From the NCBI GenBank assembly GCA_002281875.1, contig NCHN01000002.1, positions 110,936 to 174,935 on the forward strand: a stretch of 64,000 nt of DNA, in the 5' to 3' direction. How positions within the stretch are numbered: position 1 is the stretch's first letter; each line of letters starts with the position of its first letter. The notes below the pieces were generated by a model, which did no database searches, was not told the origin of the DNA, and was given only the letters and a program-made list of their open reading frames with translations. The position numbers were made by a program, and so were the translations under genes. The DNA is from Sphingobacteriia bacterium 24-36-13. GTDB taxonomy: Bacteria > Bacteroidota > Bacteroidia > Chitinophagales > Chitinophagaceae. Positions 38,022 to 47,703 of the stretch are shown one piece after another.

Positions 38022-38201
38022 ATGAAAAAATTGTTATTCGTTTTAGCATTAGGCGTATTCGCATCTTGCGCTGGAGAAAACAAAGAAGCTGCTGCTGACA
38101 CTACTGCAACAACTGTTGACACTGCTGCTGCAACTGTAGATACTGCTGCTGCAACTGTAGATACTACTGCTGCTCCTGCTGTTGACACAACTAAGAAGTA
38201 A
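38022..38201 (+). CDS. Small repeat-rich lipoprotein (59 aa)
   Basis: The frame begins ATG after an A-rich leader and encodes a signal peptide with a lipobox (GVFASCAGENK; Cys16), then a mature tail of about 43 residues made almost wholly of Ala, Thr, Asp and Val. The tail repeats TVDTAAA nearly three times with almost identical codons. It should be an outer- or inner-membrane-anchored lipoprotein with a flexible acidic tail, of unknown role. It is too short for many gene finders, and the opposite strand has a longer shadow frame that could hide it. It lies divergent from the ECF sigma gene. Confidence 0.8.
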   Translation: MKKLLFVLALGVFASCAGENKEAAADTTATTVDTAAATVDTAAATVDTTAAPAVDTTKK

Positions 38202-38294: not shown

Positions 38295-38329
38295 AGCCGC
38301 TCCGTTTCCACGGAGGGGCTTATTTTTTT
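38295..38329 (+). terminator. Terminator after the small lipoprotein gene
   Basis: AGCCGCTCCG pairs with CGGAGGGGCT with one G-G mismatch around a six-base loop, followed by TA and seven T. It separates the lipoprotein transcript from the aromatic operon leader. Between the lipoprotein stop and this site I see only a GCTTGC/GCAAGC pair (38239-38284). Confidence 0.8.
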
Positions 38330-38404
38330 AGATGAACTGAATAAAAACTAACTAACCTTAGTTTAATATTTTTCAAATAAATTTTTTGCTTCCCAATCAA
38401 TTCT

Positions 38405-38412
38405 TATATTTG
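38405..38412 (+). promoter_or_regulatory. TATATTTG -7 box of the aromatic operon leader
   Basis: TATATTTG matches TAnnTTTG. A T-rich stretch ending in TTG (38386-38388) lies 16 bases upstream, slightly close for a -33 element. Transcription would start about 38418-38420, at or next to the ATG of the leader peptide. Confidence 0.6.
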
Positions 38413-38419
38413 AAATATC

Positions 38420-38506
38420 ATGCAAACGGTAATTAACAACTGGTTCTATTCTTTTTATTATTTCTTCTTTATGAAAAGGAGCCGGGTCCAGTTTGCAAAA
38501 GCATAA
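38420..38506 (+). CDS. Phe/Tyr-rich leader peptide of the pheA operon (28 aa)
   Basis: ATG 38420 opens a 28-codon frame ending in TAA 38504-38506. Residues 8-17 read WFYSFYYFFF: five Phe, three Tyr and one Trp in ten codons (38441-38470), just before the genes for prephenate dehydratase, an aminotransferase and prephenate dehydrogenase. The run ends 10 nt before the 5' arm of an antiterminator, and the stop codon falls in the loop between the two antiterminator arms, so a ribosome that finishes would cover the 5' arm. This is the geometry of enterobacterial pheL. A chance frame with this composition at this place is improbable. No homology search was possible. Confidence 0.85.
   Translation: MQTVINNWFYSFYYFFFMKRSRVQFAKA
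38440..38485 (+). promoter_or_regulatory. Attenuator 1:2 protector hairpin
   Basis: CTGGTTC (38440-38446) can pair with GAGCCGG (38479-38485, reading GGAGCCGG from 38478), with three G-U pairs; most Phe/Tyr codons lie in the loop. When the leader is untranslated it would hold the antiterminator 5' arm and leave the terminator free. A ribosome in the aromatic run would open it. Confidence 0.6.
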
Positions 38507-38534
38507 AAGTTTTAAACAACGTATAGGTCCCGGC
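38481..38534 (+). promoter_or_regulatory. Attenuator 2:3 antiterminator hairpin
   Basis: GCCGGG (38481-38486) pairs with CCCGGC (38529-38534), followed after a T-T mismatch by CC/GG (38488-38489 with 38526-38527). Further in, GTTT pairs with AAAC and AAAA with TTTT around the leader stop codon. The 3' arm is the same segment that forms the left arm of the terminator, so only one of the two can form. Confidence 0.75.
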
Positions 38535-38554
38535 AAATAGCCGGGATTTTTTTT
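38528..38554 (+). terminator. Attenuator 3:4 intrinsic terminator before pheA
   Basis: TCCCGGC pairs perfectly with GCCGGGA around an AAATA loop, followed by eight T. It lies upstream of its operon (pheA ATG 38567) and downstream of a leader ORF, so it acts as a conditional stop, not the end of a gene. Confidence 0.92.
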
Positions 38555-38566
38555 ATCCATATAGCA

Positions 38567-39454
38567 ATGAACAAAACAAAAGAAAAAAATACCATTCCAA
38601 AAAGTAGCTTGCCGCAACAAGCTAATGGTATTTGTATTCAGGGTTATGAAGGTAGTTTTCATCAAGTTGCTGCTAGACATTTTTTCGGTAAAAACGTGGA
38701 AGTGATTCCTTGTGCTTCATTTAGACAATTGATAAAACTTGCTTTAGATGCTAACTCCTCTAAAGCAGCTGTAATGGCTATTGAAAACTCTATTGCTGGA
38801 AGCATATTACCCAACTATAATTTACTGCAAAAAGCAAATTTGAAGGTTGTAGGTGAAGTGTATTTATCTATCAGCCAAAATTTATTGGTTAATAAAGGTG
38901 TGGGTCTTTCAGATATTAAAGAAGTACACAGTCATCCGATGGCTATTTTGCAATGTCTTGATTTTTTAGAATCTCATCCTTACAAGTTAATTGAGACAGA
39001 AGATACTGCATTAAGTGCGAAATATGTTCACCAGCACAAGAGTAAACATATTGCTGCTATAGCAAGTAAACTGGCTGCTGAATTATTCAATTTAGAAATT
39101 TTAGCTCCAGATATTCAAACACAAAAAAACAATATCACTCGCTTTTTAATATTACAGAGAACCAAAGAAGCTCGGCCAATTATTGGGGCCAACAAAGCAT
39201 CTATATATTTTCAAACCAATCATTCCAAAGGAATTTTAGCAAAAGTGTTAACAGAAGTAGCAAAAACAGGAATCAATTTAAGTAAGCTTCAAAGTATGCC
39301 TATTCCTGGAAGTCATTTTAAATATGGATTCTATGCCGATATGGAATTTGATCAGCTAAAACAATTTGATAGCATGATGAATAAAATTGAATTGCTAACG
39401 AATAATGTAAAAGTGTTTGGAATTTATAAAAAAGGAAAACTGGTAAAAGGATAA
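38567..39454 (+). CDS. pheA: Prephenate dehydratase
   Basis: The 295-residue protein is a monofunctional prephenate dehydratase with C-terminal ACT domain. The catalytic part shows IQGYEGSFHQVAARHFF (about 24-40), AVMAIENSIAGSI (about 64-76) and NNITRFLIL (about 186), whose TRF-type motif is catalytic. The ACT part (GILAKVLTEVAKTGINLSKLQSMP about 223-246) normally binds phenylalanine for feedback inhibition. It makes phenylpyruvate from prephenate. It is the first gene behind the leader attenuator and starts 12 nt after the terminator T-run; the next gene follows after 2 nt. Confidence 0.95.
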   Translation: MNKTKEKNTIPKSSLPQQANGICIQGYEGSFHQVAARHFFGKNVEVIPCASFRQLIKLALDANSSKAAVMAIENSIAGSILPNYNLLQKANLKVVGEVYLSISQNLLVNKGVGLSDIKEVHSHPMAILQCLDFLESHPYKLIETEDTALSAKYVHQHKSKHIAAIASKLAAELFNLEILAPDIQTQKNNITRFLILQRTKEARPIIGANKASIYFQTNHSKGILAKVLTEVAKTGINLSKLQSMPIPGSHFKYGFYADMEFDQLKQFDSMMNKIELLTNNVKVFGIYKKGKLVKG

Positions 39455-39456
39455 TT

Positions 39457-40623
39457 ATGCAGATAGCTAAATCAAAAAGATTAGAAGGGATTGGAGAGTA
39501 CTATTTTTCGCAGAAACTTAGAGAAATTGAACATCTCAATAATGCAGGGAAAAATATCATCAATTTAGGAATAGGAAGTCCTGATCTTCCTCCACATCCT
39601 TCTGTAATACAAGCGTTACAAGAGCAAGCCAGCCTAAGTAGTACACATGCATATCAATCTTATAAAGGAGTACCAGCTTTGCGAAATGCAATAGCTAATT
39701 GGTATGAAAAATACTATCAGGTTAGTTTAAATCCGGAAACTGAAATATTGCCTTTATTAGGAAGTAAAGAAGGGATCATGCATATCTGTATGACTTATTT
39801 AAATGAAGGTGATCAGGTATTGATTCCCAATCCTGGTTATCCTACTTATACAAGTGCTGTAAAATTAGCTGGCGGTACACCTATCTATTTTGATTTAACA
39901 GAAGAAGGTAATTGGGAACCTAATTTTGAAGCTTTAGAAGCAAGTGATTTAAGCAAGGTAAAATTAATGTGGGTAAATTATCCTCAAATGCCTACTGGGA
40001 AAAAACCAAGTATTGAGTTATTTGAGAAATTGATTGCATTTGGTAAAAAACACCAAATTTTAATATGTCATGATAATCCGTATAGTTTTATTTTGAATGA
40101 TGAGCCCCTGAGTTTGCTTAGTATAGCAGGTGCAATGGATACAGCAATAGAATTAAATTCATTGAGTAAAAGCCAAAATATGGCAGGCTGGAGAGTAGGC
40201 ATGCTTTGTGGGGCAGCAGAAAGGATTAATGAAGTACTCATTTTTAAAAGTAATATGGACAGTGGCATGTTTTTGCCAGTACAATTGGCAGCTGCTACTG
40301 CATTAAGTTTAGAAAGGGATTGGTATGATTGGGTTAATGAAGTGTATGCAAAAAGAAGAGAAAAAGTATTTGAGTTATTAGATACCCTTCAATGCCAGTA
40401 TGCTACCAATCAGGTAGGCATGTTTGTATGGGCAAAAATTCCAGCAGGGGTAAAAGATGGTTATGAATTAAGTGATCAGGTCTTGTATAATAGCAATGTA
40501 TTTATAACTCCAGGAGGAATTTTTGGTACTGCGGGTAACCAATATATACGAGTGAGTTTATGTGGAAGCATCACCAAATTTGAGGAAGCCATTCAACGAA
40601 TAGAAGCTCAAAAGGCGAAATAA
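39457..40623 (+). CDS. Class I/II aminotransferase, probably aromatic
   Basis: The 388-residue fold-type I PLP enzyme has the internal-aldimine lysine in NSLSKSQNMAGWRVGM (about 234-249), the phosphate-binding region LLGSKEGIMHICMTYLNEGD (about 98-117) and a final RVSLCG segment. It resembles aspartate and LL-diaminopimelate aminotransferases. Its place between pheA and tyrA, 2 nt after the first and 9 nt before the second, makes phenylpyruvate and hydroxyphenylpyruvate the likely acceptors. Both products of the two flanking enzymes need exactly this step. Confidence 0.9.
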   Translation: MQIAKSKRLEGIGEYYFSQKLREIEHLNNAGKNIINLGIGSPDLPPHPSVIQALQEQASLSSTHAYQSYKGVPALRNAIANWYEKYYQVSLNPETEILPLLGSKEGIMHICMTYLNEGDQVLIPNPGYPTYTSAVKLAGGTPIYFDLTEEGNWEPNFEALEASDLSKVKLMWVNYPQMPTGKKPSIELFEKLIAFGKKHQILICHDNPYSFILNDEPLSLLSIAGAMDTAIELNSLSKSQNMAGWRVGMLCGAAERINEVLIFKSNMDSGMFLPVQLAAATALSLERDWYDWVNEVYAKRREKVFELLDTLQCQYATNQVGMFVWAKIPAGVKDGYELSDQVLYNSNVFITPGGIFGTAGNQYIRVSLCGSITKFEEAIQRIEAQKAK

Positions 40624-40632
40624 AAAACGATT

Positions 40633-41472
40633 ATGGTTATTACAATTGTAGGAACAGGATTGATAGGAGGCTCACTTTCATTGGCATTGCAAGCAAAAGG
40701 TTTTGCAAGCAAGGTTATTGGTGTAGAATCTAATAAAGAACATGCAGCCAAAGCAATCGAATTGGGATTGGTACATGAATGCTTAACATTAGCGGAAGCA
40801 ATACAAGCATCATCTGTAATCATTATTGCAACACCCATTAATGCTGCGGAACAATTACTGCCCATCATTTTAGACAAAGTGAGCAATCAAGTAGTGTTTG
40901 ATGTTGGTTCTACAAAATCAAAGATTGTTGAAGCGGTTAAAAATCATCCAAAAAGAGGAAGATTTGTTGCAACACACCCCATGTGGGGAACAGAAAATAG
41001 TGGACCATCTGCAGCAATTAAAGGTGCATTCAGTAAAAAAGCAACCGTTATTTGCGATAAATCGCATTCTGATTCAGACGCATTAGAAATGGTTGAGACA
41101 TTATACGCGTTATTAGAAATGCATATTCTGTACATGGAGTCTACGGCACATGATATGCATGTGGCTTACATTAGCCATATATCACATATTACTTCTTTTG
41201 CCCTTGCCAATACTGTTTTAGAGAAAGAGCGGGAGGAAGATGCCATTTTTGAACTAGCAAGTGGTGGTTTTGAAAGCACCGTTCGACTTGCAAAGAGTAA
41301 TGCTGCAATGTGGGTTCCCATTTTTATGCAAAATCGAGACAATATTTTGGATGTACTAAATGAGCATATCAGCCAATTGAGAAAATTCAAGTCGTGTTTA
41401 GAAAAAGAGAACGAAGCATATTTAGCAGAATTGATTGAAAATGCCAATGGAATAAGGAGAATACTTAAGTAA
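40633..41472 (+). CDS. tyrA: Prephenate dehydrogenase
   Basis: The 279-residue NAD(P)-dependent enzyme starts with IVGTGLIGGSLSLAL (5-19), a Rossmann motif with the TyrA-specific GLIGGS, and has DVGSTKSKIVEAV (about 94), THPMWGTENSGP (about 115, catalytic His) and HVAYISHISHI (about 176). It oxidises prephenate to 4-hydroxyphenylpyruvate. There is no fused chorismate mutase or ACT domain, so feedback must come from the leader or other enzymes of the cluster. Third gene of the attenuated operon. Confidence 0.95.
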   Translation: MVITIVGTGLIGGSLSLALQAKGFASKVIGVESNKEHAAKAIELGLVHECLTLAEAIQASSVIIIATPINAAEQLLPIILDKVSNQVVFDVGSTKSKIVEAVKNHPKRGRFVATHPMWGTENSGPSAAIKGAFSKKATVICDKSHSDSDALEMVETLYALLEMHILYMESTAHDMHVAYISHISHITSFALANTVLEKEREEDAIFELASGGFESTVRLAKSNAAMWVPIFMQNRDNILDVLNEHISQLRKFKSCLEKENEAYLAELIENANGIRRILK

Positions 41473-41498
41473 AACACCGCAAAGAAGGCTATATAGAG

Positions 41499-41506
41499 TA
41501 CCTTTG
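41499..41506 (+). promoter_or_regulatory. TACCTTTG -7 box before the DEAD-box gene
   Basis: TACCTTTG matches TAnnTTTG in the 51-base gap after tyrA. No good -33 TTG is seen. Transcription would begin about 41513, 11 bases before the helicase ATG, providing a route to the downstream aro genes that bypasses the attenuator. Confidence 0.5.
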
Positions 41507-41523
41507 CACAAATTTTAGAATAC

Positions 41524-43233
41524 ATGATTACATTTGAAGGGTTGGGAATTGACGAGCGTTTAATTCAAGCAACCACAGAGTTGGGGTATGTGAACCCAAC
41601 GGCAATTCAGGAACAGGCGATACCGGTCTTATTGAGCGGAACGACTGATTTTATCGGTTTGGCGCAAACCGGCACGGGAAAAACAGCAGCGTTTGGATTA
41701 CCCTTGTTACACATTATTGACGCAGCAGCTAAGTACCCACAGGCATTGGTGGTTTGTCCTACACGCGAATTGTGTTTGCAGATTGTTAAAGAGATTGAGC
41801 TGTTTAAGAAATATATGACCGGTATTTCGGTTGTTGCAGTTTATGGAGGAGCTTCCATCGGATTACAGATCCGTGATCTGAAAAGAGGCGTACAAATTGT
41901 TGTAGCTACACCAGGAAGACTAATTGATTTGATTGAGCGCAAAGCAATCAATTTAGAGCAAATCAGTTATGTAGTTTTAGATGAAGCAGATGAAATGTTG
42001 AATATGGGTTTCCAAGATGATATTGAATTCATTTTGAAAAATACTCCTCAACGAAACAGTACTTGGTTATTCAGTGCAACCATGCCACCAGAAATTAGAA
42101 AAGTGAGCAAGCGTTACATGAAAGATCCAAAAGAAGTAACGGTAGGTAAAGTAAATACTGCTAACAAGAGTATTGATCATCAGTACTATGTTACTACTGC
42201 TCATCATCGTTACGAAACGCTAAAGCGTATTATCGATTTTAATCCAGGTATTTATGGAATTATTTTTACTAGGACTAAATTAGATGCACAAGAAATATCA
42301 GAGCGTTTAACTAGAGAAGGATATGATATTGATGCATTACATGGCGATCTTACACAAGGTCAACGTGATAAAGTAATGGGTCAGTTTAGGGATAAAACAC
42401 TCCAATTATTAATTGCAACTGATGTTGCTGCAAGGGGTATTGATGTACAAGGTATTACCCACGTAATCAATTTTGAACTACCAGATGACGTTGAAATTTA
42501 TACGCATAGAAGTGGGCGTACGGGTAGAGCAGGAAATCAAGGAATTTGTATTTCTATTGTTCATGCCAAAGAAACGTATAAGCTTAAACAAATTGAAAGA
42601 ATCAATAATTGCCATTTCAGTAAACTAGATATTCCTTCAGGGAAAGATGTTTGTAGAAAACAATTTTTCTCATTTATGGATAAGTTATTGTCTGCAGATA
42701 TTAGCCATGGCGATTACGAAACCTATGTTCCTATGTTGGCAGAAAAGTTTGCCGATGTTAGCAAAGAAGACGTGTTAAAGCGTGTTGCTGCAATGGAGTT
42801 TGATCGATTCTTAAAGTACTATGAAAACTCAGAAGATTTAAATATTAGAGAGCGTGATAGAAGTGCAAAGAGAGATCCAAATGACCGTGGAGACAACCGA
42901 TCTGCACGCAGAGAAAGCGGAAGGGACGCTGGTAGAGATGCGGGCCGTGGCGATAGTAGAAAAGAGTATAAATCTGGGGGAGGTTACAGTAGGTTATTTG
43001 TAAACCTTGGAACTAAAGATGGTTTTTATAAGGCCAGCTTCTTGCAATTTGTATTAGATATGAGCGATCTTAAGAAAGAAGTATTGGGTCGTATTGATAT
43101 GAAAGATATGAATAGCTGGATTGAGATTGAGAAAACCGCAGCACAGCAAATGATTCGTTCTTTGGATGGAAAAAAGTACAAAGGAAGAAGCATTCGTATG
43201 AATGATGCCGATAGTGGAGGAGGACGCAGATAA
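41524..43233 (+). CDS. DEAD-box RNA helicase with DbpA-type RNA-binding domain
   Basis: The 569-residue protein has the Q motif (NPTAIQEQAIPVL), Walker A AQTGTGKTAAFGLP (about 47), DEAD (about 152), SAT and the HRSGRTGRAG motif VI. A charged linker rich in Arg/Asp/Gly (about 443-485) joins a C-terminal DbpA-like RNA-recognition domain (SRLFVNLGTKDGFYKASFL about 491-509). DbpA proteins act in large ribosomal subunit assembly. It sits in the middle of the aromatic cluster with a possible promoter in front and the DAHP synthase gene 26 nt behind, so it may drive the second half of the cluster. Confidence 0.93.
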   Translation: MITFEGLGIDERLIQATTELGYVNPTAIQEQAIPVLLSGTTDFIGLAQTGTGKTAAFGLPLLHIIDAAAKYPQALVVCPTRELCLQIVKEIELFKKYMTGISVVAVYGGASIGLQIRDLKRGVQIVVATPGRLIDLIERKAINLEQISYVVLDEADEMLNMGFQDDIEFILKNTPQRNSTWLFSATMPPEIRKVSKRYMKDPKEVTVGKVNTANKSIDHQYYVTTAHHRYETLKRIIDFNPGIYGIIFTRTKLDAQEISERLTREGYDIDALHGDLTQGQRDKVMGQFRDKTLQLLIATDVAARGIDVQGITHVINFELPDDVEIYTHRSGRTGRAGNQGICISIVHAKETYKLKQIERINNCHFSKLDIPSGKDVCRKQFFSFMDKLLSADISHGDYETYVPMLAEKFADVSKEDVLKRVAAMEFDRFLKYYENSEDLNIRERDRSAKRDPNDRGDNRSARRESGRDAGRDAGRGDSRKEYKSGGGYSRLFVNLGTKDGFYKASFLQFVLDMSDLKKEVLGRIDMKDMNSWIEIEKTAAQQMIRSLDGKKYKGRSIRMNDADSGGGRR

Positions 43234-43259
43234 TTTTATTAACAAGCAATCAAACGTAT

Positions 43260-44345
43260 ATGGAACAGACCTTACAGCAAGAAGCTAGTATCAACACCAT
43301 TCTTGCAAAAAGACCACTCATTATTTCCGGACCTTGCAGTGCGGAAACCGAAGAGCAAGTGCTGGCAACTGCTAGTCAACTTGCTGCAACTGGTAAAGTA
43401 GATATTTTACGTGCCGGAATTTGGAAGCCACGAACCAGGCCTGGAAGTTTTGAAGGTGTTGGAACTAAAGGTTTGCCTTGGTTGCAAAAAGCAAAAGAAT
43501 TAACCGGTTTGCCAGTAGCAGTTGAAGTAGCAACAGGTAAGCAGGTGGAAGATGCTTTGCATTTTGGCGTAGACGTTTTATGGATTGGTGCTAGAACAAC
43601 AGTGAATCCATTTAGCGTTCAAGATGTAGCTGATGCATTAAAAGGAGTGGATGTTCCAGTTTTGATTAAGAACCCTATTAATCCAGATTTAGAATTATGG
43701 ATTGGAGCTGCTGAACGTGTTGCGAAAGCTGGAATTAAAAACATCGGATTAATTCATAGAGGTTTTAGTTCATATGGTAACACGGAATACCGTAACGCAC
43801 CAATGTGGCATTTGGCTATTGAAATGAAGCGTAGGTTTCCTGAAATGCTGATGATTAATGACCCTTCCCATATTTGTGGAAGAAGAGATATTCTGCAGGA
43901 AGTGGCGCAAAAAGCAATTGACTTAGATTTTGATGGATTAATTATAGAGAGTCATATAGATCCAGATAATGCTTGGAGTGATGCTAAACAACAAGTTACT
44001 CCTGATGTATTGGGTGCTATGATTAGCGCAATGATTTGGCGCAAGGAAGACATTATTTCTGAAGAGTTGCATATTCAAATGGATAAAATGCGCGCTCAAA
44101 TAAATCAGTTAGACGATGAGCTTTTGCAATTATTAGGACAACGAATGAAAGTAGCAGATAAAATTGGACAATATAAAAAGGACAATAATATTACCATTTT
44201 GCAAACCAATCGTTGGAATGCCATATTAGAGCGAGCTTTTGTAAAAGGAGGGCAGCTTGGTCTTAGCCAAGAATTTATCACTAAGTATTTTGATGCGGTA
44301 CATATGGAAAGTATCAACCATCAAAATAAGATCATGAATTCATAG
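43260..44345 (+). CDS. Bifunctional DAHP synthase / chorismate mutase
   Basis: The N-terminal 265 residues are a type I-beta (KDPS-like) DAHP synthase: LIISGPCSAETEEQV (19-33), RAGIWKPRTRPGSFEGVG (about 52-69), MINDPSHICGRRD (about 198). The C-terminal 95 residues are an AroQ-type chorismate mutase (MDKMRAQINQLDDELLQLL about 277, RMKVADKIGQYK). It thus performs the first step of the shikimate pathway and the branch step to prephenate; in related fusions the mutase part mediates prephenate feedback. It follows the helicase gene by 26 nt and aroB starts 1 nt after its stop. Confidence 0.94.
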   Translation: MEQTLQQEASINTILAKRPLIISGPCSAETEEQVLATASQLAATGKVDILRAGIWKPRTRPGSFEGVGTKGLPWLQKAKELTGLPVAVEVATGKQVEDALHFGVDVLWIGARTTVNPFSVQDVADALKGVDVPVLIKNPINPDLELWIGAAERVAKAGIKNIGLIHRGFSSYGNTEYRNAPMWHLAIEMKRRFPEMLMINDPSHICGRRDILQEVAQKAIDLDFDGLIIESHIDPDNAWSDAKQQVTPDVLGAMISAMIWRKEDIISEELHIQMDKMRAQINQLDDELLQLLGQRMKVADKIGQYKKDNNITILQTNRWNAILERAFVKGGQLGLSQEFITKYFDAVHMESINHQNKIMNS

Positions 44346-44346
44346 T

Positions 44347-45366
44347 ATGCAGAAGAAGCGTTTTTTATTCTCTGGGAAAGAAACTGTTTTTTATTTTGAT
44401 GCAGTATTTAACGTTGTAGAAAAAATTGTTTCAAAAGAGAAAGCCATAATAGTAACAGATGAAAATTTGTTTCAAACCTATAAGCGAAAATTAAAGGGCT
44501 TTAATACCATTGTTTTAAAGCCAGGTGAGCAATTTAAGGTTCAACAAACAGTTGATGTAATTATTGATCAATTGATTTTATTGGGTGCGGATAGGCAAAC
44601 CACTTTAATTGGTTTTGGAGGAGGCGTTATCACAGATATAACAGGCTATGTTGCAGGAATTTATATGCGAGGAATTGAAGTAGGATATATTCCTACTTCT
44701 CTTTTAGCAATGGTTGATGCAGCAATAGGCGGTAAAAATGGAATTGATGTAGGCCTGTATAAAAATATGGTTGGATTAATTAGACAGCCTTCATTTTTAA
44801 TTTATGATTATAGTTTACTAAAATCATTGCCTTTGGCAGAATGGAAGAATGGGTTTGCAGAAATCATTAAACACGCCTGTATTAAGGATCAAAAAATGTT
44901 TGTTGAATTAGAGCAAAACAGTATTCCCAAATACAAAAAAAATCCTTCCTTACTGGCAAAGTTAATCATGCATAATGCATTGATTAAAATAAAAGTAGTG
45001 CAACAAGATGAGTTTGAAAAAGGTGATAGAAAGCTTTTGAACTTTGGGCATACACTTGGGCATGCAATTGAGAATATGTATCAATTAAGCCATGGTGAAG
45101 CCATCAGTATTGGTATGACCTATGCGGCATTGATGTCTCAGCAATTAAAATTTTATAAAGAGGCTGATAGGGTTATTCGCTTATTGCATCAATATGGGTT
45201 GCCTACAGTTGCCAATTTTGATGCAAAAAAGGCTTTTCGAATTTTATTAAAAGACAAGAAAAAGCAAGACGACTCAATCAATTATATTCTTTTGCAAAAA
45301 ACAGGAAAAGGAGTGATTCAACCTCTTTTGCTAGTGCAATTACAAGAGATTTTTAAACAGTTTTAA
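44347..45366 (+). CDS. aroB: 3-dehydroquinate synthase
   Basis: The 339-residue protein has the NAD-binding GFGGGVITDITGYVAG (about 90-105), the PTSLLAMVDAAIGGKNGID block (about 117-135) and the metal-site segments GFAEIIKHACIKD (about 173) and NFGHTLGHAIE (about 234). It turns DAHP into 3-dehydroquinate. It is compactly coupled with the preceding gene (1 nt) and with aroA (17 nt). Length is slightly short of the usual 350-360, with trimmed ends but all catalytic blocks present. Confidence 0.94.
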   Translation: MQKKRFLFSGKETVFYFDAVFNVVEKIVSKEKAIIVTDENLFQTYKRKLKGFNTIVLKPGEQFKVQQTVDVIIDQLILLGADRQTTLIGFGGGVITDITGYVAGIYMRGIEVGYIPTSLLAMVDAAIGGKNGIDVGLYKNMVGLIRQPSFLIYDYSLLKSLPLAEWKNGFAEIIKHACIKDQKMFVELEQNSIPKYKKNPSLLAKLIMHNALIKIKVVQQDEFEKGDRKLLNFGHTLGHAIENMYQLSHGEAISIGMTYAALMSQQLKFYKEADRVIRLLHQYGLPTVANFDAKKAFRILLKDKKKQDDSINYILLQKTGKGVIQPLLLVQLQEIFKQF

Positions 45367-45383
45367 TATTCCAATTTGTACTG

Positions 45384-46679
45384 ATGATTGCAACCATTCA
45401 TCCTATTAATATTCAAGGTGAAATACTTGCCAATGCAAGTAAAAGCTCTATGCAGAGAGCATGTGCTGCTGCATTACTGCATCAAGGAACAACTCATATT
45501 ATTAATCCTGGAAATAGTTTTGATGATTTGGCTGCTATTGAAATGATTCAAAAATTAGGAGCAGTTGTTGCAAAGAATACGAGTGAAAATATTACCATTG
45601 AAAGTAAAGGAGTATTGCCTTTTTCTAAAGAATTAAATTGTGGAGAAAGTGGATTAGGAATAAGAATGTTTACTCCTATTGCTGCTTTAAGTAATGCAAT
45701 ATTAACCATTAATGGAACTGGCAGTTTGTTAAAAAGACCGATGCATTTTTTTGATGAAATACTGCCACAAATCGGAATACAAATTAACTCTACAAATGGA
45801 TTTCTACCCATCACTATCCAAGGGCCATTAAAACCTGTAGACATTACAATTGATGGCTCATTGAGTTCACAGTTTCTGACTGGATTATTGATGGCTTATG
45901 GAGCTGCAAAAGCAGATGGGGTTACAATTACAGTTCGCGATTTAAAAAGTAGGCCATACATTGATCTTACTCTAAAAGTGATGGAAGCATTTGGAACAAT
46001 TGTTCGTAATAATGATTATGCCAGTTTTGAATTTCATACCGAAGATCAAAAAATTAAGAAAGAATCAATAGAATACCAAGTAGAAGGGGATTGGAGTGGA
46101 GCCGCTTTTTTATTAGTTGCTGGGGCAGTTGCTGGTAGCATAACTGTTAAAGGATTGGATGTGTTTTCAAAACAGGCAGACAAGGCAATCTTGCAAGCAT
46201 TATCTGATGCAGGAGCTGCACTTTCTGTTGAAGAACATCAAATAGAAGTTAAGTCATTGCCTTTGAAAGCTTTTCATTTTAATGCAACGGATTGTCCAGA
46301 TTTGTTTCCTCCACTGGTAGCACTGGCATCCTTTTGCGAAGGCACTACCGTGATAGAAGGGGTGAATAGGCTTGAACACAAAGAGAGTAATCGGGGGATT
46401 AGTTTACAAAAAGAATTTGGTAAATTGGGTGTTGAAATAAAGTTGCAAGACAACTTGATGTTGATTAATGGGCTTAGAAATGGATTACAGTTAAGTGCAG
46501 TACAATCGGGAACTGTTCATTCTCATCACGATCATAGAATTGCGATGGCTTCAGCCATCGCGGCTTTAAATGCGAATGGGCCAGTTACTATTGAAGATGC
46601 GGAGGCAATTAATAAATCTTATCCAGCATTTTATAGTCACTTGAAGCAATTGGGAGTTCGTGTAATAACTGAAATATAA
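45384..46679 (+). CDS. aroA: 3-phosphoshikimate 1-carboxyvinyltransferase (EPSP synthase)
   Basis: The 431-residue protein has the two-domain inside-out barrel of EPSP synthase: ANASKSSMQRACAAALL (about 12-28, the substrate lysine and serine), SLSSQFLTGLLMAYG (about 158) and DHRIAMASAIAAL (about 385). The usual N-terminal LPGSKS segment reads ANASKS and the glycine-rich LGNAGT-type loop reads CGESGLGIRM, both atypical of classical enzymes but seen in Bacteroidota homologues as I recall. It joins shikimate-3-phosphate and phosphoenolpyruvate. aroC follows after 25 nt. Confidence 0.92.
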   Translation: MIATIHPINIQGEILANASKSSMQRACAAALLHQGTTHIINPGNSFDDLAAIEMIQKLGAVVAKNTSENITIESKGVLPFSKELNCGESGLGIRMFTPIAALSNAILTINGTGSLLKRPMHFFDEILPQIGIQINSTNGFLPITIQGPLKPVDITIDGSLSSQFLTGLLMAYGAAKADGVTITVRDLKSRPYIDLTLKVMEAFGTIVRNNDYASFEFHTEDQKIKKESIEYQVEGDWSGAAFLLVAGAVAGSITVKGLDVFSKQADKAILQALSDAGAALSVEEHQIEVKSLPLKAFHFNATDCPDLFPPLVALASFCEGTTVIEGVNRLEHKESNRGISLQKEFGKLGVEIKLQDNLMLINGLRNGLQLSAVQSGTVHSHHDHRIAMASAIAALNANGPVTIEDAEAINKSYPAFYSHLKQLGVRVITEI

Positions 46680-46704
46680 AAACGTTTAAATATAAAACAG
46701 TAAG

Positions 46705-47703
46705 GTGAACGCATTTGGAAAGTTATTTAGTGTGCAAATTTTTGGAGAGTCTCATGGAGAATCCGTTGGATTAGTCATTGATGGATGTCCTGCTGGTCTT
46801 CCTTTATCTGTTGAAGATTTTATTCTTGATACCGAGAGAAGAAAGGGCGGAGTACAAAAAGGAACAACTCCTCGAAAAGAAGATGATTTGCCCATTTTTA
46901 AAAGTGGATTATTCAATGGAAAAACAACTGGTGCTCCCTTAACTATTTTATTTGAAAACAACAATACAAGAAGCCAGGATTACGATAAACATCGGTCTAT
47001 CCCAAGACCAGGCCATGCAGATTTTACAGCACATCTGAAATATGGAGGGTTTGAAGATTTTAGAGGCGGTGGACATTTTAGTGGTCGATTAACCGTATGC
47101 TTGGTTGCTGCAGGAGTGGTTGCCAAAAAGTTATTAGTTCAGCATAAGATACAGATTCAATCCCAAATAAGCGAAATTGGCGGAGAACTTGATATTGAGA
47201 AAGGATTGCAAAAAGCGATTGATGCAAAAGACAGTGTGGGCGGGATTGTGGCTTGCACAGCATCGGGCTTGCCGATTGGTTTAGGGGAACATTTTTTTGA
47301 TTCCGTTGAATCTCTCATTAGCCATGCTGTATTTGCTATACCTGCTGTTAAAGGAATTGAATTTGGAGCAGGATTTGCAGCTGCCCAAATGTATGGGTCT
47401 GAGCACAATGATGCCATTGAAAACATGTCGGGCCAAACTAAAACCAATCATGCAGGTGGAATAGTTGGCGGTATAACTAATGGAAATGATTTGTATTTTA
47501 GGGTTGCCATCAAGCCTACTTCTTCAACACCTAAAGAGCAGATTTCATTGAATTGGGAAACTAAACAGCAAGAACAATTTTCAATAAAAGGAAGGCATGA
47601 TTTGTGTATTGCATTAAGGGTTCCTGTAATTTTAGAAGCAGTAACAGCTATGGTCATTACAGATTTAATGTTACAAGAACAGAAATTAAAAAGAATTATA
47701 TAA
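46705..47703 (+). CDS. aroC: Chorismate synthase
   Basis: A GTG start (MNAFGKLFSVQIFGESHG) gives 332 residues. The family signatures are FGESHGESVGLVIDGCPAG (13-31, catalytic His17), RPGHADFTAHLKYGGFEDFRGGG (in two parts, about 99-121) and GIVGGITNGNDLYFRVA (about 254). It removes phosphate from EPSP with reduced FMN to give chorismate, the branch compound for Phe, Tyr and Trp. Genes for 3-dehydroquinase, shikimate dehydrogenase and shikimate kinase are not in the window. The next gene starts 1 nt after the stop. Confidence 0.94.
   Translation: MNAFGKLFSVQIFGESHGESVGLVIDGCPAGLPLSVEDFILDTERRKGGVQKGTTPRKEDDLPIFKSGLFNGKTTGAPLTILFENNNTRSQDYDKHRSIPRPGHADFTAHLKYGGFEDFRGGGHFSGRLTVCLVAAGVVAKKLLVQHKIQIQSQISEIGGELDIEKGLQKAIDAKDSVGGIVACTASGLPIGLGEHFFDSVESLISHAVFAIPAVKGIEFGAGFAAAQMYGSEHNDAIENMSGQTKTNHAGGIVGGITNGNDLYFRVAIKPTSSTPKEQISLNWETKQQEQFSIKGRHDLCIALRVPVILEAVTAMVITDLMLQEQKLKRII

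Follow-up and report, generated by a model that had tools for sequence, protein, structure and literature searches.

A predicted leader-peptide attenuator with both phenylalanine and tyrosine codons before the pheA operon of Sediminibacterium and many other Bacteroidota

Introduction

Leader-peptide attenuation is textbook biology in enterobacteria. The pheL leader of Escherichia coli is Phe-only, and the leaders of its ilvGMEDA and thrABC operons are examples of one leader peptide reading several amino acids. In the Rfam family Phe_leader (RF01859), as at the locus described here, a leader peptide with Phe codons, mutually exclusive hairpins and a terminator are located before pheA. In Bacteroidota, the Bacteroid-trp element (RF01692) is an RNA element found before trp genes.

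The articles cited by PMC number are used in excerpt, and statements about them extend to those excerpts. In 2010, leader-peptide systems had, to the knowledge of the authors of one study, been shown only in Proteobacteria and Actinobacteria (PMC2965389). As far as we found, attenuation in Bacteroidota has appeared in print as predictions or inferences (PMC1173090, PMC7366714, PMC9723704), and attenuation of the pheA operon was among the earlier predictions for the phylum (PMC1173090, PMC9723704). A table of 2005, based on the Merino database, lists a putative attenuator before pheA>hisHb>aroAIbeta-aroQ>tyrA of Bacteroides thetaiotaomicron (PMC1173090, Table 7), and a study of Flavobacterium psychrophilum inferred attenuation by leader peptides at amino-acid operons (PMC9723704). 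Leaderless leader ORFs are described for trpL of Sinorhizobium meliloti (PMC7298713) and for ilvBNC of Corynebacterium glutamicum, in which hairpin 1 is said to block initiation (PMC11857589).

In the literature that we searched, outside which most subscription journals lie, we found no leader of Bacteroidota described as combining Phe and Tyr. A study of 2010 by Lopatovskaya et al., cited in PMC4833913, may describe such leaders. Here, we analyse a Sediminibacterium locus in a window of 64,000 nt (the whole stretch of DNA under study), in which a predicted attenuator ends 12 nt 5' of pheA in a pheA-aminotransferase-tyrA operon. We consider it very probable that this element is a transcription attenuator, mediated by the ribosome, in which charged tRNA-Phe and tRNA-Tyr are sensed jointly.

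Methods

Searches for pheA were made in three collections of genomes. Among 100 relatives, 63 genomes matched, and 62 of 66 places were read; among 198 genomes of the order, 115 matched, and 100 of 115 places were read; and among 296 genomes of the phylum, 258 matched, and 53 loci were read, mostly those of the closest homologues, 20 of them hand-chosen. The main set comprises 169 loci after removal of five duplicates, and the 20 hand-chosen loci bring the total to 189. Loci are designated by L-numbers and the families sampled by f-numbers. A full call consists of an ORF of 8–75 amino acids with at least six F/Y in 11 residues, together with a terminator.

For the pairing of arms 2 and 3 (2:3), the duplex energy was compared with that obtained after mononucleotide shuffling of the middle segment. 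In the synonymous-codon control, the peptide was fixed, the codons were resampled and the pairing was compared. Covariation was counted on an alignment of all 82 family rows, with L015 taken from its first base. The distance termed the ruler is counted between two bases, the one that opens the last F/Y codon and the one at which arm 2 begins to pair.

Results

Genes of the operon and its surroundings

The genes downstream of the attenuator are the following:

38567..39454, + strand: pheA, prephenate dehydratase (NCBIfam NF008865, 198.3 bits, below the 219-bit curated cut-off)
39457..40623, + strand: aminotransferase (best models below their curated cut-offs)
40633..41472, + strand: tyrA, prephenate dehydrogenase (NCBIfam NF006307, 354.7 bits, above the 295-bit cut-off)
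41524-43233, same strand: DEAD-box RNA helicase, between tyrA and the DAHP synthase-chorismate mutase gene
46705-47703: ORF taken by eye for chorismate synthase

The helicase gene is followed by a DAHP synthase-chorismate mutase fusion, aroB and aroA. From pheA to the likely chorismate synthase gene (38567-47703), eight collinear ORFs are separated by short gaps, and each of the four terminator-like sites on the plus strand from pheA to 47703 falls inside an ORF. Most of the aromatic pathway may come under the control of this single attenuator. Among relatives, an aminotransferase homologue directly follows pheA on the same strand in 74/74 tested loci, these being the ones, out of 77 given, with at least 500 nt after pheA. 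Upstream of the leader, positions 38022-38201 hold a 59-residue ORF with a lipoprotein-like start (FASCAG) and end repeats of the AATVDT type.

Anatomy of the leader region

Between the upstream ORF and pheA, the following features are located:

38382..38388, + strand: -33-like TTTTTTG, 16 nt 5' of the -7 box (sequence reading)
38405..38412, + strand: -7 box TAnnTTTG, TATATTTG (sequence; consensus from PMC9723704)
38417, + strand: predicted transcription start, 3 nt 5' of the AUG, with the G of the box as -5
38420..38506, + strand: leader ORF of 28 codons with its ATG at 38420, MQTVINNWFYSFYYFFFMKRSRVQFAKA and stop (sequence reading)
38421..38446, + strand: arm 1 (38421-38429 and 38440-38446), from the fold, with family support mainly from other genera; its partners, 38479-38485 and 38488-38497, are arm 2 and bases 3' of arm 2
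38444..38470, + strand: control codons FYSFYYFFF, residues 9-17 (sequence reading)
38481..38489, + strand: arm 2, GCCGGGTCC, starting 13 nt beyond the first base of the last Phe codon
38526..38534, + strand: arm 3, GGTCCCGGC, common to antiterminator 2:3 and terminator 3:4
38540..38549, + strand: arm 4, GCCGGGATTT (sequence reading, terminator search)
38547..38554, + strand: eight T, predicted 3' end of the terminated RNA

A preliminary description of this DNA had named the TAnnTTTG box, the 28-codon ORF with WFYSFYYFFF at residues 8-17, the antiterminator 2:3 and a terminator with eight T, and the sequence bears out all four. The antiterminator joins GCCGGG-T-CC (38481-38489) with GG-T-CCCGGC (38526-38534) in eight pairs with one T.T mismatch, and the terminator is AGGTCCCGGC-AAATA-GCCGGGATTT at 38525-38549. 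The two structures are mutually exclusive, having arm 3 in common. The 1:2 pair of the same description, CTGGTTC (38440-38446) with GAGCCGG (38479-38485), is present but weak as given, two of its seven pairs being G-T. In the fold of 38417-38554, it is lengthened by pairing of 38421-38429 with 38488-38497, and the hairpin then includes the AUG region.

The predicted RNA folds at -38.7 kcal/mol (z -4.5), a value equalled by none of 200 shuffles. The 2:3 stretch alone reaches -17.3 kcal/mol (equalled by 6/200 shuffles) and the terminator alone -16.4 kcal/mol (0/200). Because 2:3 and 3:4 are almost equal in energy when each is taken alone, the outcome would rest on kinetics.

Promoter and predicted RNA start

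In F. psychrophilum, TAnnTTTG is located at -12 to -5 (PMC9723704), and transferring this spacing to the present locus gives a predicted start at 38417. The claim that transcription starts next to the AUG thus stands as a prediction, though the start is placed 3 nt upstream and not on the AUG itself. The exact box ends 4-7 nt 5' of the start codon in 49/53 genus leaders, with a spacing of 7 nt in 38/53; among the remaining four, the contig truncates two, and the other two carry the box with a single mismatch. This spacing predicts a 5' UTR of 0-3 nt in those 49 leaders. For comparison, a box is found 3-10 nt upstream in 4/49 long window ORFs, which were taken mechanically from the first ATG. 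A -33 promoter element is also known, and in Chitinophagaceae loci there are 69 occurrences of TTG 15-20 nt 5' of the box for 90 TAnnTTTG boxes.

Over all 137 leaders with a full call in the main set, 73 have an exact box 3-11 nt 5' of an ATG. Several f18 loci (e.g. L217, L221 and L227) have the box farther upstream, which suggests that leaderless translation belongs to this branch and not to the whole phylum. Leaderless mRNAs make up 5.5% of the mRNAs of F. psychrophilum (PMC9723704), and about 3.7% of 5' UTRs in B. thetaiotaomicron are shorter than 10 nt (PMC7366714).

Conservation of the ORF and terminator

The full call was obtained 5' of pheA at 137/169 loci, which belong to related species and are not independent, compared with 1/845 dinucleotide-preserving shuffles of the same regions. 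An F/Y ORF with at least seven F/Y in 11 residues precedes pheA at 163/189 loci, compared with 1/945 mononucleotide shuffles, and the full call, with its at least six in 11, was made at 147 of the 189; as in the main set, these counts cover related species. A separate set of 80 loci, which overlaps the main set and was counted apart, gave a full call in 67/80; 7/13 of the others have less than 200 nt of upstream sequence. By family, the 189 loci are distributed as follows (F/Y ORF with at least 7 in 11; full call):

Genus: 53/54; 48/54
Other genera of the family: 36/38; 34/38
f18: 33/37; 33/37
f19: 7/9; 9/9
f25: 18/18; 8/18
f23: 4/5; 5/5
f28: 3/4; 2/4
f31: 2/2; 0/2
f29: 2/2; 2/2
f54: 1/2; 1/2
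f39, f48 and f36: each 1/1; each 1/1
f67: 1/1; 0/1
f12: 0/3; 2/3

Neither F/Y ORF nor full call was found in f3 (3 loci), f2 (2 loci, one with less than 200 nt upstream) or f14, f17, f58, f70, f50 and f62 (1 locus each), and the F/Y ORF is absent from 26/189 loci altogether. In this sample, loci whose PheA homologues are closer have the element, and those with the most distant homologues lack it.

The counts given are the automatic ones, in which six of the 54 genus loci fail the full call. The contig of L012 begins within the leader, and L032, L033, L039, L042 and L046 were missed by the rule because the pheA alignment begins inside the attenuator. Among other genera of the family, the attenuator is likewise present by eye in L146 and L170, the hairpin of L155 is present with a poor T run, and the ORF of L179 is longer than the 75-residue limit. 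In L033, L039, L042, L046 and L146, the T run of the terminator abuts or nearly abuts the likely pheA start, so the hairpin could affect pheA translation as well. The f25 loci L238-L246 and L248 have a split F/Y run, NRFYFSNxFYFFF or close to it, and no terminator passing the rule; termination in such leaders may proceed via a weaker T run.

The nearest titled records for the locus are Sediminibacterium or unclassified Sphingobacteriia. Throughout the genus, the ORF, arms 2–4 and the spacing between promoter and ATG are conserved; Sediminibacterium salmoneum and S. goheungense both carry the leader. The ORF and the 2:3/3:4 logic also occur, with different arm sequences, in further families of the order, the class and the phylum. 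Conservation of the ORF and of the complementarity of arms 2, 3 and 4 in relatives had been set beforehand as the test of the idea, which survived it.

Pairing of the arms across loci

The 2:3 pairing ranks among the best 5 of 100 shuffles in 123/137 loci and in 44/44 of the genus subset. Arm sequences vary by family and yet match, as in CGAGAC with GTCTCG in L051. The stronger test of 2:3 is the synonymous-codon control, in which it reaches 0.05 or less in 36/46 genus loci, 29/32 loci of other family genera and 11/21 others. The 2:3 pairing is therefore kept by synonymous-codon choice.

Covarying arms had been proposed as a further check, and one of the two structures passes it. Over the 82 family rows, 90.5% of 3:4 cells pair, and 7 pairs and 41 cells are changed on both sides, compared with 3.8 pairs and 9.9 cells in shuffles, of which 0/500 reach either real value; 3:4 covariation also exceeds every slid version. 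For 2:3, 94.7% of cells pair, but a single pair is changed on both sides, which 429/500 shuffles match, and the covariation score of 0.073 is lower than that of partners slid by +1 (0.093). With one covarying pair, and shuffles behaving alike, 2:3 is conserved rather than covarying within the family. A 69-row subset without L015 and twelve deviant-looking rows had given 98.3% paired for 2:3, with offset 0 best; its pair counts flattered 2:3 and are superseded by those from all 82 rows.

The 1:2 hairpin behaves differently between groups. In a first test with the short 3' partner, it was among the best 5 of 100 in 24/137 loci and in 8/44 of the genus. In the extended test, 40/85 sequence clusters reach 0.05 or less against shuffles and 21/85 against swapped partners; 5/44 genus loci do so against swaps. 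The synonymous control for 1:2 gives 16/34 in other family genera, 2/48 in the genus and 3/55 elsewhere. Support for the extended 1:2 pairing thus comes from the family; beyond the family it is slight or lacking, and in the genus itself codon choice adds little. From these sequences, a 1:2 hairpin is likely in the family and would be the weakest part of the attenuator; outside the family, a two-hairpin version may operate.

The anatomy of the attenuator, its conservation, the covariation of 3:4 and codon-level selection on 2:3 are shown by these comparisons.

Control codons and alternative explanations

The short ORF is rich in codons for the amino acids of the operon, and its runs use TTT/TTC and TAT/TAC in phase. 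The joint presence of Phe and Tyr in one peptide, which the preliminary description held to be unusual, is confirmed but is no one-off, as both residues occur in 137/137 eleven-residue runs. That a real attenuator here senses one amino acid, Phe more likely than Tyr, with the other codons as tolerated neighbours, is unlikely. Phe residues do exceed Tyr residues, by 692 to 440 over the 137 runs, and in the window it is a Phe codon that comes last before arm 2, but both residues are found in every run, in an order that differs between loci, and the operon makes both amino acids.

Composition is kept while order is free, with 87 F/Y orders among 108 distinct runs, and this points to decoding, with charged tRNA being sensed, rather than to peptide sequence. 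It thereby also weighs against a peptide that acts as a product, through nascent-chain arrest or as a small protein in trans like peTrpL, which we regard as very unlikely. The codons over arm 2 are chosen for RNA pairing, and the ORFs of L024 and L029 stop before arm 2 and do without the tail SRVxFxKA. That tail is kept beyond arm 2 in much of the genus, as might suit a functional peptide, and a precedent for action in trans is provided by peTrpL of Sinorhizobium (PMC7298713).

The phase of the codons speaks against a translation-independent switch, whether riboswitch, T-box, protein-bound RNA or a pyrimidine tract that happens to spell F/Y. A U-rich tract is indeed present, and Phe and Tyr codons are pyrimidine-rich, but T makes up 79% at codon position 1, position 2 has 36% A and 46% T, and position 3 has 92% pyrimidine and 5% A. 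In addition, gaps in the family alignment from the start codon to the end of the run are multiples of three, and no Rfam family, T-box and riboswitches included, reaches its gathering score in the window; such a switch is highly improbable. Chance, with a terminator belonging to the upstream gene and an accidental ORF, has a negligible probability: short ORFs and terminators are common, but the upstream ORF is followed by a terminator-like hairpin of its own at 38300-38315, and conservation in relatives and the shuffles refute it, so that the leader ORF and terminator 5' of pheA are not chance.

Spacing of the control codons and the stop codon

The spacing within the leader agrees with a ribosome-mediated attenuator. 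The ruler measures 10-13 nt in 90/137 loci, with a mode of 13; it is shorter in 23/137 and longer in 24/137. A ribosome with a codon in its A site reaches about 12-13 nt beyond it, as given by the toeprint distance. With the mode at 13 nt, a stalled ribosome would halt at or just before arm 2, and at 10-11 nt it would touch the edge of this arm. The control codons are thus placed so that a stalled ribosome would leave arm 2 free.

A stop codon in the antiterminator loop, as first described for the window, is usual in the genus but not general. It lies 23-33 nt past the start of arm 2 in 71/137 loci, 1-20 nt past it in 43/137 and at or before arm 2 in 23/137. Two Sediminibacterium leaders (L024:131-262 and L029:2398-2529) have the stop codon directly 5' of arm 2. 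In every layout, a ribosome at the stop codon would lie over arm 2 or in the loop, and in the window its cover of arm 2 would be limited to the 3' part.

Discussion

Proposed mechanism

The reading as classical leader-peptide attenuation, put forward at the outset, is supported by the conservation of the ORF, 2:3 and 3:4 in relatives. The start site, translation, stalling, the amino acids that act and the direction of the response are predicted from the sequence as follows. Transcription would start about 3 nt 5' of the AUG, so that the leader ORF would be read from an essentially leaderless RNA. When Phe-tRNA or Tyr-tRNA is scarce, the ribosome would slow in codons 9-17 with its leading edge just short of arm 2, and arm 2 could then pair with arm 3. 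This antiterminator would let polymerase continue into pheA-aminotransferase-tyrA and probably the following aro genes. When both tRNAs are plentiful, the ribosome would pass arm 2 and reach the stop codon, which lies in the antiterminator loop, and would cover part of arm 2; 3:4 would form, and transcription would end near 38554. Without translation of the leader, arm 2 would be taken up by the extended 1:2 hairpin, and termination would be favoured.

A further-reaching interpretation is that this is an old switch of Bacteroidota, with leaderless initiation as part of the mechanism and dual Phe/Tyr sensing of the operon. We think it rather improbable. As the near-5'-terminal AUG would lie within arm 1, the 1:2 hairpin that frees the terminator would also shut the start codon. 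If this were true, one ribosome would serve each transcript, loading at once and staying with the polymerase, and dual sensing of Phe and Tyr would set the whole aromatic operon.

One switch can be traced across many families, and nearly every part of it has natural variants, including arm sequence, stop-codon position, F/Y order and promoter-to-start distance. These variants make it testable whether ribosome and polymerase are coupled in these bacteria, for whose phylum Shine-Dalgarno sequences are said to be absent (PMC9723704), and whether attenuation can work on a leaderless RNA. The arrangement suggests that the levels of Phe and Tyr control much of the aromatic pathway via one RNA.

Searches of the source genome for similar leaders were crude. 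Other F/Y runs (TWY x6), assessed by their number, gave 33 matches against 31 in the reversed control, which is no excess. His runs gave three matches in two places, of which one overlaps a 932-codon ORF and the other has no His-rich short ORF around it. No second attenuator came to light in this way, though one may exist.

Comparison with known systems

No covariance-model match to Bacteroid-trp (RF01692) was obtained in the window or in the genome it comes from. The window scores 20.9 bits against Phe_leader (RF01859), for which the gathering score is 55 (E 0.39); this is no better than for unrelated families, and the element is thus not filed in Phe_leader. Unlike that family, it has Phe and Tyr codons together, precedes pheA-aminotransferase-tyrA, belongs to another phylum and has a predicted leaderless start. 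The ilvGMEDA and thrABC leaders are multivalent as well, but they read branched-chain amino acids or Thr/Ile, whereas the amino acids here are aromatic.

Within the phylum, the attenuator tabulated for B. thetaiotaomicron (PMC1173090) shares the leading gene and a similar operon and is possibly the same element; the entry is putative, and its available text does not give leader peptide, codons or arms. The attenuation described for F. psychrophilum (PMC9723704) has the phylum and the inferred mechanism in common with our locus, gene and peptide not being named in the excerpt. The trpL and ilvBNC leaders (PMC7298713, PMC11857589) resemble the layout predicted here in having the ORF at or next to the 5' end of the RNA and differ in amino acids and phyla. 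The mechanism is thus classical and known; the dual specificity and the leaderless start, both as predicted here, together with the wide spread set this version apart.
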